Shown here one piece after another: positions 13,357 through 19,971 of a stretch of DNA of 64,000 nt. The position numbers and the translations under genes are program-made. Source of the DNA: Phnomibacter ginsenosidimutans (GTDB taxonomy: Bacteria; Bacteroidota; Bacteroidia; Chitinophagales; Chitinophagaceae); NCBI RefSeq assembly GCF_009740285.1, contig NZ_CP046566.1:3200658-3264657 (forward strand), in the 5' to 3' direction. Below the pieces are notes generated by a model. That model was given only the letters and a program-made list of their open reading frames with translations, had not been told where the DNA came from and made no database searches. How positions within the stretch are numbered: position 1 is the stretch's first letter; every line of letters begins with the position of its first letter.

Positions 13357-14052
13357 ATGAATGAAGTAGTGAAAACCGCACAGCCCCGCCGGTGGGCAGA
13401 AAGCAAAGCACACAGCAGCTGGCAAATCTTTAAAATCATGGCTGAGTTTGTAGATGGCTTTGAAGCGCTGAGCCGCATCGGGCCCTGCATCAGCATTTTT
13501 GGAAGTGCCCGTACACAGCCCGGTCATCCGCACTATGAGCTGGCCGTAGAAATAGCCCGTGAATTGTCGCAGGAAGGTTTTGGTATCATTTCCGGTGGTG
13601 GCCCCGGCATTATGGAAGCGGCCAATAAAGGCGCTTTTTTGGCGGGTGGAAAATCAGTAGGCCTCAATATTGAACTGCCTTTCGAGCAAAAGCCCAACAG
13701 CTATATCGACCGCGATAAGAACCTGCATTTTGATTACTTCTTTGTACGCAAAACGCTGTTCATGAAATACTCGCAGGCATTTGTAATGATGCCCGGTGGC
13801 TTTGGTACACAGGATGAATTTTTTGAAGTAATGACCCTGGTACAAACCAACAAAATGCACCGGGTACCCATGGTGCTGGTGGGCCGCGATTACTGGAAAG
13901 GATTGGTAGACTGGGTAAACAATACCATGCTGAAGGAAAAATATATCAGCCCGGGCGACATAGAATTGTTTACCGTGGTAGATACGCCAAAAGAAGTCAC
14001 CAACTACATCCTCGACTTTTATACAAAGCATAAACTGGAGCCCAACTTCTAA
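13357..14052 (+). CDS. LOG family protein (TIGR00730), long form
   Basis: A 231-residue paralogue of the protein encoded at 11.0-11.6 kb. It has the Rossmann start (GPCISIFGSARTQPGHPHYE), SGGGPGIMEAANKGAF and the catalytic PGGFGTQDEFFEVMT. The 45-residue N-terminal helix (residues 1-45) is typical of the longer LOG subfamily, which includes proteins annotated as lysine decarboxylase by mistake. Its likely role is hydrolysis of nucleotide monophosphates. It is monocistronic with its own terminator. Confidence 0.93.
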   Translation: MNEVVKTAQPRRWAESKAHSSWQIFKIMAEFVDGFEALSRIGPCISIFGSARTQPGHPHYELAVEIARELSQEGFGIISGGGPGIMEAANKGAFLAGGKSVGLNIELPFEQKPNSYIDRDKNLHFDYFFVRKTLFMKYSQAFVMMPGGFGTQDEFFEVMTLVQTNKMHRVPMVLVGRDYWKGLVDWVNNTMLKEKYISPGDIELFTVVDTPKEVTNYILDFYTKHKLEPNF

Positions 14053-14057
14053 TAAAA

Positions 14058-14091
14058 AAAGGAGCATCAATACGGTGCTCCTTTTTTTATC
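14058..14091 (+). terminator. Terminator between LOG gene and kinase-like gene
   Basis: AAAGGAGCA (14058-14066) and TGCTCCTTT (14076-14084) form the stem, followed by a T-run. The flanking A-run lets it serve the convergent gene too. Confidence 0.88.
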
Positions 14092-15190
14092 AATCGTCAT
14101 ATCGAGCCCTCACTCTGGGCAGTAGCTTCATGCTCTTGCGAAGCGTTTGTTTCATGTGCATTTTTACCACATCTCCCATAGAGGCGCATTTTAAAAAATG
14201 AGGTTCATGATAATGATCGGCCAACTCCTGCCGTAGCTGTGCCAGCTTTTCTGGCGGGGCTATTTCATCTTTATGCATGATGTCCAACAGATGTTTCAAC
14301 CGGTATCTCGATGTCGCCAATCTGAAAGACATCAACGTTCTTTCCTCTGCCTGATATTGCTCAATGCTGTCCTTGTTCAAGTGCTTCAGCGTTAATTCAA
14401 CCAGCGGGTAATTTTCTTTTAAAAATTGGCAGAGGTATAAATTTTTCCGCCCTTCATACGATTGCTGATCAAAGTCGATGGCCCGGATGCGGTACTGATA
14501 ATCTTCAACATCGGGCGTAATATTGACCACAAAATTGTAGCTCCGCATATCGCCCAGCAACCGCACAAAGCAACGCTCGTTAAACTTCACAAACTCTTTG
14601 GCAAACCTGATTTTATTGAAGTTCGGATCTTCCATGTATTGCTGAATAAACACATCGCCGGGTATGCCGGGTATGTGTTCTTCTATCAGCGTATCGCCAC
14701 TGGTTAAAAATGTAATACGGTTGGGCGATAACATATGCTCCAGTTCCAAACCATAAATGCGGGAAGCATCGGCCTGCTTTACATAGTAGTGATCGTAGTT
14801 ATCGTTGAACTTATTGACAATGCGAATGCGGAAGGGTTGCGAATTGCCGAAAGGACAAAAATCTACCCTTGCCAAATCGAGCTGCGGTACAAACGTGAGG
14901 TCGCCTTCGGTACGGAGTGCTGCATAAGTTTCTACCAGCACTTCCCGCAGGTAATCCCAGTCGCGGCTGTCGTACGAAACGGTTTCCCACATTGTATCCT
15001 TACCATGCTTGTCTTTCAACGGCGATGAATACGTGAAGCGCCGCAAATCGGTATAATTAACCAGGTACTTTTTTTCGCGGCCATGCTGCTGCAAAAACTG
15101 TCGCAAGGCAGAACCGATTTTATACATCGGCTTTTTACGCGACGGCTTCAGCGATGGTGAATGATCGGATTGTGTATCGGGAAAATGCAT
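14090..15190 (-). CDS. Uncharacterised protein with kinase-like motifs
   Basis: A 366-residue protein with no standard annotation that I can name. In order it shows HYYVKQADASRIYGLELEHM (candidate ATP-binding Lys138 and a helix-C Glu), EEHIPGIPGD (hinge-like, 170-179), GDMRSYNFVV (213-222; Asp214 and Asn219 fit an HxD...N catalytic loop) and IRAIDFDQ (235-242; DFG-like metal site). This order and spacing resemble the APH/RIO/HipA kinase-like fold. The C-terminal third is helical and basic (LRKSMKLLPRVRARYDD). The start at 15190 is chosen because upstream sequence is repeat DNA. The fold is inference; the substrate is unknown. Confidence 0.6.
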   Translation of the reverse strand: MHFPDTQSDHSPSLKPSRKKPMYKIGSALRQFLQQHGREKKYLVNYTDLRRFTYSSPLKDKHGKDTMWETVSYDSRDWDYLREVLVETYAALRTEGDLTFVPQLDLARVDFCPFGNSQPFRIRIVNKFNDNYDHYYVKQADASRIYGLELEHMLSPNRITFLTSGDTLIEEHIPGIPGDVFIQQYMEDPNFNKIRFAKEFVKFNERCFVRLLGDMRSYNFVVNITPDVEDYQYRIRAIDFDQQSYEGRKNLYLCQFLKENYPLVELTLKHLNKDSIEQYQAEERTLMSFRLATSRYRLKHLLDIMHKDEIAPPEKLAQLRQELADHYHEPHFLKCASMGDVVKMHMKQTLRKSMKLLPRVRARYDD

Positions 15191-15252
15191 AGGTAATAAA
15201 GATACAGGACGGAAAGTGGATGTTAGATGACAGATGTTAGCAATACCGACTC

Positions 15253-15307
15253 CGGACTTCCCTTCATTAATTATACCTCTCCCAGCCTCTCCCAAGGGAG
15301 AGGGGAC
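15253..15307. repeat. 55-base intergenic repeat, copy A
   Basis: It matches copy B (15380-15434) with three substitutions over 55 bases. Both contain the hairpin CCTCTCCC-AA-GGGAGAGG. The gap 15191-15558 holds these plus many short 'CGGACTTCCG/CGGACTTTCG' units and no gene. Confidence 0.85.
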
Positions 15308-15379
15308 GTAGAGCCAGGCTGTGAACTCCGGACTTAACTTCTACGGACTACGGACTTCCGTCTACCAACTCCGGACTTC

Positions 15380-15434
15380 CGGACTTCCCTTCACTAATTC
15401 TACCTCTCCCGGCCTCTCCCAAGGGAGAGGGGAC
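15380..15434. repeat. 55-base intergenic repeat, copy B
   Basis: Second copy of the element at 15253-15307, in the same orientation, 72 bases further on. Confidence 0.85.
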
Positions 15435-15558
15435 TTAGCGTTTGGCAATGGACTCCCAACTTTCCATCTTCCGGACTTTCCGTCTTTCGGACTTTCGGAC
15501 TACTGTCTCCCGTCTCCCGACTACTCACTCATCCACTACCTTCGTGCCAATTCAACCA

Positions 15559-16194
15559 ATGCACATGCCACAGGATTTGGAATCTTACGCTTCACAACAC
15601 TGCAGCCCGTTGGAACCGCTGTTGCAAGAAGTACTGGCCTATACCGAACAACATCATCCCAAAGCGCATATGATTAGTGGTGCAGTGCAAGGCCTACTAC
15701 TGCAACAGTTGAGCCATATGCTTCGCCCCAAACGCATTTTGGAAATAGGTACATTCACCGGGTTTAGTGCATTGTGTTTGGCCGCCGGCCTGCCCGAAGA
15801 TGGCTTGTTGTATACGCTGGAAATGCGGGCCGAAGATGCTGCCACAGCGCAATCTTTTTTCGATCGTTCTGAAAAGAAAAATCAACTGCGGTTGTTGCAG
15901 GGCGATGCAAGACAAATCATTCCGACACTACAAGAAAGTTGGGACTTGGTGTTTATTGATGCCGATAAAATATCGTACATCGATTACTACAACATGCTGG
16001 TACCCCGCATGGCCGCTGGCAGTTTTTTACTGGCCGACAATGTGCTCTTTCATGGTGAAGTTTTACAAGACGAACTGAAAGGTAAAAACGCCAAAGCCAT
16101 TGCGGCATTCAATGCCCATGTGCAAGGCGACGACCGTACCCAAAATGTGTTGTTGACCGTACGGGATGGGCTCATGCTCATTCGCAAAAAATAA
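15559..16194 (+). CDS. SAM-dependent O-methyltransferase
   Basis: A 211-residue class I methyltransferase of the caffeoyl-CoA/catechol O-methyltransferase family. The SAM motif ILEIGTFTGFSALCLAAGLP is followed by LYTLEMR (acidic residue for the SAM ribose), the metal-site Asp in LVFIDADKISYIDYY and ADNVLFHGEV. Its substrate is likely a small hydroxylated compound. The open frame extends upstream into repeat DNA; the ATG at 15559 (or 15565) follows a TACCTTCG box at 15538-15545, which matches the local -7 promoter pattern, so the leader is very short. Confidence 0.92.
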   Translation: MHMPQDLESYASQHCSPLEPLLQEVLAYTEQHHPKAHMISGAVQGLLLQQLSHMLRPKRILEIGTFTGFSALCLAAGLPEDGLLYTLEMRAEDAATAQSFFDRSEKKNQLRLLQGDARQIIPTLQESWDLVFIDADKISYIDYYNMLVPRMAAGSFLLADNVLFHGEVLQDELKGKNAKAIAAFNAHVQGDDRTQNVLLTVRDGLMLIRKK

Positions 16195-18837: not shown

Positions 18838-19971
18838 TTATTTCGCTTTCGATAATACAGATTCGTACAAGGCTTCGTACTTCGGTACTATTTGCTGTAT
18901 GTCGAACTTGCAGGCATGCTCGTAGGCTTGCTTTTTAAAGCGGGCCAAGGTGTCGTCATCTTTCAGCATGCTGATGGCGTATTCGGCCATTTCATCAATG
19001 TGGCCAACTGGTGCCATGTAGCCGGTTACACCATGTACATTTATTTCGGGAATACCGCCGGCATTGCTGCTTAACACAGGTACACTCGCCGCCATGGCTT
19101 CCAATGCACTCAGGCCAAAACTTTCGTATTCGCTGGTCAGCAAAAACAAATCACTGATCACCATCACGTCTTCCATTTGCTCCTGCTTGCCCACAAATCG
19201 AACATGATTGCAAATGTCCAATTCGCGGCTCAGCTCTTCGGCCATGTGGCGTTCAGGACCATCACCCACCATCATGAGTTTGCTGGGCACCTGTTTCAAC
19301 ACTTTGGCAAAAATGCGGATCACATCATCTACCCTTTTCAGCTTTCTGAAGTTGGATGCATGTATGAGAATACGTTCGCCATTTGGCGCCACCGCTTTGC
19401 GAAAAGCATCAATCGGCTTTTTTGAAAAACGACTAACGTCAACGAAGTTGTGAATGACCTCGATATCTTTTTTTACATGAAAAGACTTGTACGTTTCTTC
19501 TTTCAGGTTGTCTGATACGGCCGTAATGGCATCGCTTTCGTTGATGCTGAAGGTAACCACCGGCTCGTAGGTTTTGTCTTTACCCACCAGCGTAATATCC
19601 GTGCCATGCAGGGTGGTAATGACAGGCAACCGAATGCCATCATTCTTCTCCAGAATTTGCCGGGCTATGTAAGCACTCAATGCATGCGGAATGGCATAGT
19701 GCACATGCAGCAAATCGAGTTTTTGATTGAGCACCACATCTACAATGGTGCTGGCCAGCGCCGACTCATATGGCGGATATTCAAACAGCGGATAGGTGGT
19801 AATACGAACCTCGTGGTAAAAAATATTGGCATTGAATGCACTCAAACGAACCGGCTGACGGTACGTAATAAAATGCACCTGATGCCCCTGGTTGGCCAAT
19901 GCCATACCCAGTTCTGTAGCAAGCACGCCACTACCACCAAATGTGGGGTAGAGCACTATTCCAATTCTCAT
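18838..19971 (-). CDS. bshA: N-acetyl-alpha-D-glucosaminyl L-malate synthase
   Basis: First enzyme of bacillithiol synthesis: joins L-malate to UDP-GlcNAc. The 377-residue GT4 glycosyltransferase starts MRIGIVLYPTFGGSGVLATELG, diagnostic for BshA, then has LDLLHVHYAIPHALSAYIA and the donor-site EYESFGLSALEAMA motif. It implies that this organism uses bacillithiol as its low-molecular-weight thiol, as many Bacteroidota do; bshB and bshC are not in the window. Convergent with the dipeptidase gene. Confidence 0.94.
   Translation of the reverse strand: MRIGIVLYPTFGGSGVLATELGMALANQGHQVHFITYRQPVRLSAFNANIFYHEVRITTYPLFEYPPYESALASTIVDVVLNQKLDLLHVHYAIPHALSAYIARQILEKNDGIRLPVITTLHGTDITLVGKDKTYEPVVTFSINESDAITAVSDNLKEETYKSFHVKKDIEVIHNFVDVSRFSKKPIDAFRKAVAPNGERILIHASNFRKLKRVDDVIRIFAKVLKQVPSKLMMVGDGPERHMAEELSRELDICNHVRFVGKQEQMEDVMVISDLFLLTSEYESFGLSALEAMAASVPVLSSNAGGIPEINVHGVTGYMAPVGHIDEMAEYAISMLKDDDTLARFKKQAYEHACKFDIQQIVPKYEALYESVLSKAK

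Follow-up and report, generated by a model that had tools for sequence, protein, structure and literature searches.

HipA proteins are bacterial kinases with the kinase fold, and the catalytic loop of APH has the consensus GDLHPGN. In a 2007 account of the microbial kinome, PI3K was counted among the eukaryotic-specific families, and the part of that paper used here notes that PI3K has no sequence similarity to other kinase families outside key motifs (PMC1821047). Passages of a further study describe PI-kinase-like proteins in bacteria, namely OpiA/AnkK, MavQ and Lmor_1975 of Legionella, and support a bacterial origin for them (PMC9758233), so that a bacterial PI3K-like kinase is not unheard of. 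The same passages describe Lani_1194, a kinase-like family that had not been annotated before and that occurs in Legionella and elsewhere, Flavobacteriales included; its lysine is replaced by Arg, an ion-pair Glu cannot be identified, and 94% of its homologues carry a methyltransferase domain. These passages describe no Bacteroidota family with the motifs reported below (PMC9758233). The three PI-kinase-like Legionella proteins are set beside our protein by description, not by sequence. Titles and abstract beginnings of the top-ranked open-licence papers yielded no description of the present kinase family or of a bshA-linked kinase, which is not proof that there is none.

The gene and its distribution

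The window is the whole stretch of DNA that was analysed, 64,000 nucleotides of Phnomibacter ginsenosidimutans (NZ_CP046566.1, positions 3,200,658 to 3,264,657), and coordinates below are those of the window. The open reading frame lies where the initial annotation had placed it, on the minus strand and with the stop codon included:

14090-15190, minus strand: coding sequence of the PI3K-like kinase, 366 amino acids, ATG at 15190, stop at 14090-14092

It sits in a 4.37-Mb single-contig genome containing one match to the kinase, and its informatively named relatives are mostly Chitinophagaceae. The product had been described as unannotated, and for Pfam and NCBIfam this holds, as a search of the window protein at E up to 1 gave no family in either; the kinase founds a family that is not yet in either collection. 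When 54 homologues were searched against Pfam one by one, no consistent family emerged. The commonest family matched four of them (best E 0.05), the best E among the families listed was 0.0011 (two members; a cilia protein family), and there was no kinase among the 25 listed of the 29 families matched. At E up to 0.01, two NCBIfam families were matched, each by a single homologue. For the window protein itself, PHROGs gave one family of unknown function at E 0.55, a phmmer search of the PDB gave no match, and a profile search of the PDB gave one irrelevant match at E 0.19.

With a threshold of E 0.001, relatives of the kinase turned up in 99 of the 147 genomes sampled from the same family, a count that includes one genome (G122) represented by a 36-residue piece alone, and in 99 of 395 sampled genomes of the phylum, where one genome (G389) is represented by two stop-containing fragments. 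Roughly two in three of the genomes sampled from this bacterial family, and one in four of those from the phylum, thus contain a member of a kinase-like family that has no name in Pfam or NCBIfam. A scan of genome contigs for close relatives gave 170 stretches, 162 of them relatives, of which the best 80 were kept. When a profile was searched against 296 genomes of the phylum, 79 strong matches were followed by six weak or fragmentary ones (G389, G400, G175, G232, G372 and G431), and the kinase family is therefore compact. No match was found in the plasmids searched. Viral contigs gave 30 pattern matches, none of which encodes a relative of the kinase, and no match to a typed PI3K motif pattern.

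Two unusual copies were seen. Genome G389, of family f10, carries two kinase gene fragments with stops (L176) and an intact copy was not found there; the fragments are apparently a decaying relic in this one genome. Genome G034 has a second copy (L166:3995-5095) that is very divergent, on a long branch of 2.5 changes per column on the tree, and retains every invariant kinase residue.

Conserved kinase motifs

The motifs on which the kinase reading was first based are all present at the residues named for them: VKQ (K138), E149/E151, EEHIPG (170-175), GDMRSYNFVV (D214, N219) and IDFD (D239, D241). With a P-loop-like segment added, the candidate functional elements are as follows, all on the minus strand:

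14834-14851, minus strand: P-loop-like FGNSQP, residues 114-119; N116 and P119 invariant; PI3K-alpha counterpart SSAKRPLW
14759-14779, minus strand: K138-x-x-D141-x-x-R144, putative ATP-binding lysine motif; K, D and R unchanged in all 54 homologues; PI3K-alpha FKNGDDLRQD
14738-14740, minus strand: Glu151, candidate helix-C glutamate; 54 of 54; on model helix 142-154
14675-14683, minus strand: hinge-like EEH, residues 170-172; E170 and H172 invariant
14534-14554, minus strand: putative catalytic loop GDMRSYN, residues 213-219, with presumed roles for D214 and N219; PI3K-alpha GDRHNSN
14468-14479, minus strand: IDFD, residues 238-241, DFG-equivalent, presumed metal-binding motif; PI3K-alpha HIDFGH

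Conservation was examined in an alignment of 54 chosen diverse homologues, 41-93% identical to the window copy, in which 40 of the 366 positions were invariant. K138, E151, D214, N219, D239 and D241 were each identical in all 54, among them the three residues (Lys138, Asp214 and Asp239) on whose conservation the original proposal had been staked. The hypergeometric probability that six named positions would all fall on invariant columns is about 1.2e-6, and the motif set is therefore not due to chance. P119, D141, R144, E170, H172 and G213 were likewise invariant. Position 216 is R in 37 homologues and H in 17, and position 149 is E in 52 and D in two. Taken together, the window copy and the consensus read FGNSQPFR...VKQADASRIYG and GDM[RH]SxN...IDFDQQ. 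The lysine, helix-C Glu, Asp, Asn and DFx Asp that are sequence features of the protein-kinase-like (PKL) superfamily are thus present in order and conserved.

For comparison, the PI3K-alpha segments SSAKRPLW...FKNGDDLRQD, GDRHNSN and HIDFGH were confirmed in PDB entries. The P-loop proline, K-x-x-D-x-x-R, G-D-x-[RH]-x-x-N and I-D-F are common to PI3K and the window protein, so that the PI3K signature (K-x-G-D-D-L-R-Q-D, G-D-R-H-x-x-N, H-I-D-F-G) is kept in part. The two differ in that the final Gly of DFG in the PI3K sequence HIDFG is Asp in IDFD here, and in the spacing from the lysine to the catalytic Asp, which is 76 residues here and 113 in PI3K-alpha chain 3zim_A. The catalytic loop also resembles the G-D-[LM]-H-x-G-N type found in APH, with GDMHSGN occurring in several homologues of the window protein, and the motifs alone therefore decide neither for PI3K nor for APH. 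Unlike Lani_1194, the protein has both K138 and E151 and no methyltransferase domain.

A kinase fold does not always serve phosphotransfer to a substrate: SelO, SidJ and COQ8 are atypical kinase-fold families, and by their example the present fold might carry out AMP transfer, polyglutamylation or ATP hydrolysis, or might form a catalytically dead scaffold. We regard this as unlikely, since none of the canonical phosphotransfer residues varies among the 54 homologues, the divergent G034 copy included.

Predicted structure

A model of the window protein was built with AlphaFold2 from 80 rows (the window protein and 79 close homologues). It had a pLDDT of 80.6 and a pTM of 0.81, with low confidence at residues 1-15, 214-217 and 242-258. 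The N-terminal part was modelled as helices and two strands, followed by strands at 104-111, 120-126 and 131-139, the last of which carries K138. The middle consists of a helix at 142-154 containing E151, strands at 161-164 and 167-171 (the hinge), and helices at 178-184 and 193-206. After the catalytic loop the model has strands at 219-226 and 231-239, with DFD at the end of the second, and then a helical C-lobe. The predicted order of strands and helices is that of a bilobal kinase. This PKL fold, which agrees with the one first proposed for the protein, is a prediction, and the best 50 rows in each listing of structural matches were all kinases.

Foldseek against the PDB placed MK2 first (E 3.8e-5) among 50 best rows that were all kinases. 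The top rows were eukaryotic Ser/Thr kinases, with query-normalised TM scores of 0.20-0.31 and rmsd of 15-21. After re-alignment by VIA, which covers Foldseek's top 1000, the best 50 rows were all PI3K/PI4K/PIKK by title, including ATM, mTOR, PI4KIIIbeta and PI3Kgamma/delta, at 8-14% identity to the window protein; PI3K leads after re-alignment alone, and MK2 in Foldseek's own order. The best VIA match was VPS34, with Z 11.7 and rmsd 4.7 over 267 aligned residues, between model residues 26 and 359. According to the notes of the tool, models that lack a clear match commonly reach a best Z of 7-8, and 11.7 is therefore a good but not an overwhelming score. A model of one homologue, L005 (pLDDT 77.8, falling below 50 at 191-200 and 202-238), again gave PI3K/PI4K/PIKK in all of the best 50 VIA rows, with a modest best Z of 9.2.

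The N-terminal 110 residues had been described as unlike known kinases. This now appears too strong, because the PI3K-type VIA alignments begin near residue 26 and most of the N-terminal part therefore lies inside the aligned range, a range that gives the first and last aligned residues alone and so does not prove kinase likeness of the N-terminal part.

Relationship to known kinase families

The protein had been likened to APH, RIO and HipA types. For APH and HipA this was not borne out: the structural rows listed after re-alignment were PI3K/PI4K/PIKK, and neither APH nor HipA is found among the best 50 rows of any Foldseek or VIA listing, which does not prove that they are absent further down. 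Neither APH (PF01636) nor HipA (PF07804) was matched in Pfam. For RIO kinases the evidence is indirect, the lack of any Pfam family for the window protein. Profile-profile comparison by hhalign gave probabilities of 0.20% and 0.45% against two local APH alignments and 0.34% against a local HipA alignment, all below 1% and no better than the 0.1-1.5% scored by three unrelated control alignments; the local alignments are small (12 and 9 rows for APH, 10 for HipA), and distant homology could escape them. HipA has the kinase fold, as predicted for the window protein, but the two are joined by no Pfam signal and by no profile-profile signal to the local HipA alignment.

PF00454 (PI3_PI4_kinase) was found at E up to 0.001 in none of 99 phylum genomes, the window's genome included. 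It was absent from the Pfam search of the window protein and from the 25 listed of the 29 families matched by homologues. The closest listed structural matches of both models are nevertheless PI3K/PI4K/PIKK, and as there is no PF00454 match we call the protein PI3K-like, not a member of PI3_PI4_kinase.

The conserved motif set, the predicted bilobal fold and the PI3K-type matches together indicate that the protein is most likely a kinase, and most likely one nearer to PI3K than to the APH, RIO and HipA types. The core of the initial annotation, that this may be a new kinase with a complete motif set, therefore survives on the 54-of-54 invariance and the predicted fold; the comparison with APH and HipA is not borne out. 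We consider it likely, judging from the model and the motifs, that the protein is an active phosphotransferase with the PI3K/PI4K form of the protein-kinase-like fold, whatever its substrate. If it is PI3K/PI4K-like, it would place a bacterial branch with no tie to inositol lipids close to a superfamily known mainly from eukaryotes.

From these data we infer catalytic activity and the roles of individual residues. The gene product would be an ATP- and metal-dependent phosphotransferase, probably soluble, as no signal peptide was seen by eye. Lys138, paired with Glu151, is predicted to hold the ATP phosphates, and the EEH segment to form the hinge. Asp214 would act as the catalytic base, and Asn219 and Asp239/Asp241 would bind Mg2+.

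Linkage to bshA

Three neighbouring genes in the window are relevant:

13357-14052, plus strand: TIGR00730-family gene, window neighbour of the kinase
15442-16194, plus strand: O-methyltransferase-like product (by eye), no NCBIfam match at 1e-10
18838-19971, minus strand: BshA (TIGR03999, E 1e-163)

Outside the window's class but in the same phylum, bshA lies immediately upstream of the kinase, on the same strand, in 12 of the 16 kinase-positive genomes examined, of 28 found. The adjacency occurs in families f14, f26, f30, f40, f42, f44 and f54, and the examined genomes that lack it belong to f19 (two) and f38 (two). Among the out-of-class loci fetched, which cover 27 of the 28 genomes, 19 of 27 had bshA adjacent (at most 138 bases from the end of the bshA ORF to the start of the kinase match), the misses being six f38 and two f19 loci. 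The conserved flanking genes run in the opposite direction to the bshA-kinase pair, so the pair looks, from gene arrangement, like a two-gene operon. On a tree of 53 kinases the bshA-adjacency label needs three changes, which can be read as a single ancestral linkage that was lost twice, and not as repeated gains. Other nearby genes are also kept in part of the clade, and part of the bshA signal is therefore plain synteny.

Within the class, direct adjacency was seen in none of 64 genomes. Only the window's genome, among these 64, has the two genes close together, with 3.7 kb between bshA and the kinase. In 21 of the 64 both genes are on one contig, the next nearest pair being 125 kb apart, and in 43 they are on different contigs. 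One near case in 64, against 0.15 expected by an estimate from genome size, means that the proximity in the window is explicable by chance.

A link to bacillithiol by presence and absence was also tried and set aside. At E up to 0.001, 291 of the 296 phylum genomes have bshC (285 of them over its cut-off), and all 80 of the kinase-positive genomes examined have bshA, so such profiles cannot discriminate; with bshC near-universal, the kinase is not needed wherever bacillithiol genes occur.

The adjacency outside the class is a hint, from gene order, of a role in thiol metabolism. The available parts of two papers provide a precedent for modified bacillithiol in Bacteroidetes, N-methyl-bacillithiol, and the word 'kinase' was not found in their main text as available (PMC6282198; PMC12719100). 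According to the part used here of a 2015 review, in vitro cysteine ligation by BshC was still to be demonstrated at that time (PMC4360819). A bacillithiol-pathway kinase that phosphorylates GlcNAc-malate, GlcN-malate or bacillithiol itself is a long shot. If it were correct, it would imply a new phosphorylated low-molecular-weight thiol or an activated intermediate of cysteine ligation, a step whose mechanism was reported in 2015 as unresolved. The conserved bshA-kinase pair gives a direct way into what may be an unrecognised step of bacillithiol chemistry.

Inositol lipids and the class of substrate

The structural rows listed, PI3K/PI4K/PIKK, and the matching motifs could point to a lipid kinase whose substrate, as with true PI3K and PI4K, is phosphatidylinositol or some other inositol lipid. 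Co-occurrence with inositol-phosphate synthase (PF01658) was therefore examined in 296 phylum genomes, those with the 79 strong kinase matches being taken as kinase-positive and the six weak or fragmentary matches being counted as without kinase. PF01658 was present in 13 of 79 genomes with the kinase and in 35 of 217 without it (Fisher p 1.0), and there was no match in the window's genome. With no association between the two, phosphatidylinositol is an unlikely substrate and this reading of the protein was rejected. The absence of PF00454 from the 99 phylum genomes likewise tells against inositol lipids of any kind, and we give a lipid kinase only a very small chance. Unlike the PI3K/PI4K lipid kinases, the window protein has no link to an inositol pathway.

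Returning to the active phosphotransferase that we favour, about half of its likelihood falls to transfer to the hydroxyl of a small polar metabolite of sugar, polyol or thiol type. The remainder goes to protein or, least, to an inositol lipid, so that the chances of a protein kinase and of a lipid kinase are contained in that of the phosphotransferase as a whole. For the substrate, our best guess is a small hydroxylated metabolite; thiol metabolism comes first among its possible contexts, though with weak support.

Other neighbours of the kinase

Neighbours of the kinase within the class vary by lineage. Among 62 long-flank loci of Chitinophagaceae, a class II fructose-bisphosphate aldolase gene was present in 43, at +1 in 39 of them, and a gene of the cystathionine-beta-synthase/cysteine-synthase family also in 43, at -2 or -3 in 35. 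A TroA-like 'helical backbone metal receptor' gene seems to lie at -1 in up to 36 loci, a loose count because clustering merged the TroA-like gene with the kinase. These three neighbour clusters were named from one example each. In other members of the class, an ABC-transporter ATPase cluster lies near the kinase in 17 f5 loci.

No phylum-wide partner gene was found in the neighbour clusters. This, with the lack of signal in the HipA profile comparison, weighs against the reading that the enzyme acts on a cellular protein, as a protein kinase with a role like that of PIKK or HipA. Such an enzyme would fit the protein kinases that head the Foldseek list and the presence of ATM and mTOR among the VIA rows, and the conserved linkage to bshA could mean regulation of the partner enzyme; we hold it to be a possible reading, well short of an even chance.

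Several local arrangements were seen at individual loci. In two f8 genomes (L167:2306-6403 and L168) the kinase is part of a tight same-strand gene cluster, and its neighbours in L167 include a flavodoxin gene and an RnfB-like electron-transport gene. The kinase ORF, as called here, shares 8 bases with an upstream gene of 405-417 codons in nine loci of Chitinophagaceae, including three from Sediminibacterium, an arrangement that suggests translational coupling. One example of this gene is L030:4713-5963, whose product has no NCBIfam match at 1e-10.

In the window, the intergenic region at 15251-15469, between the kinase and the divergent upstream gene, contains a 92-base direct repeat, the copies being 83% identical and 127 bases apart. 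Each copy carries the 20-mer CCTCTCCCAAGGGAGAGGGG, which has an inverted repeat as its core and no exact occurrence anywhere in the genome besides these two. The core was found in none of the other 253 loci compared. The repeat is a lineage-specific element and possibly a regulatory one.
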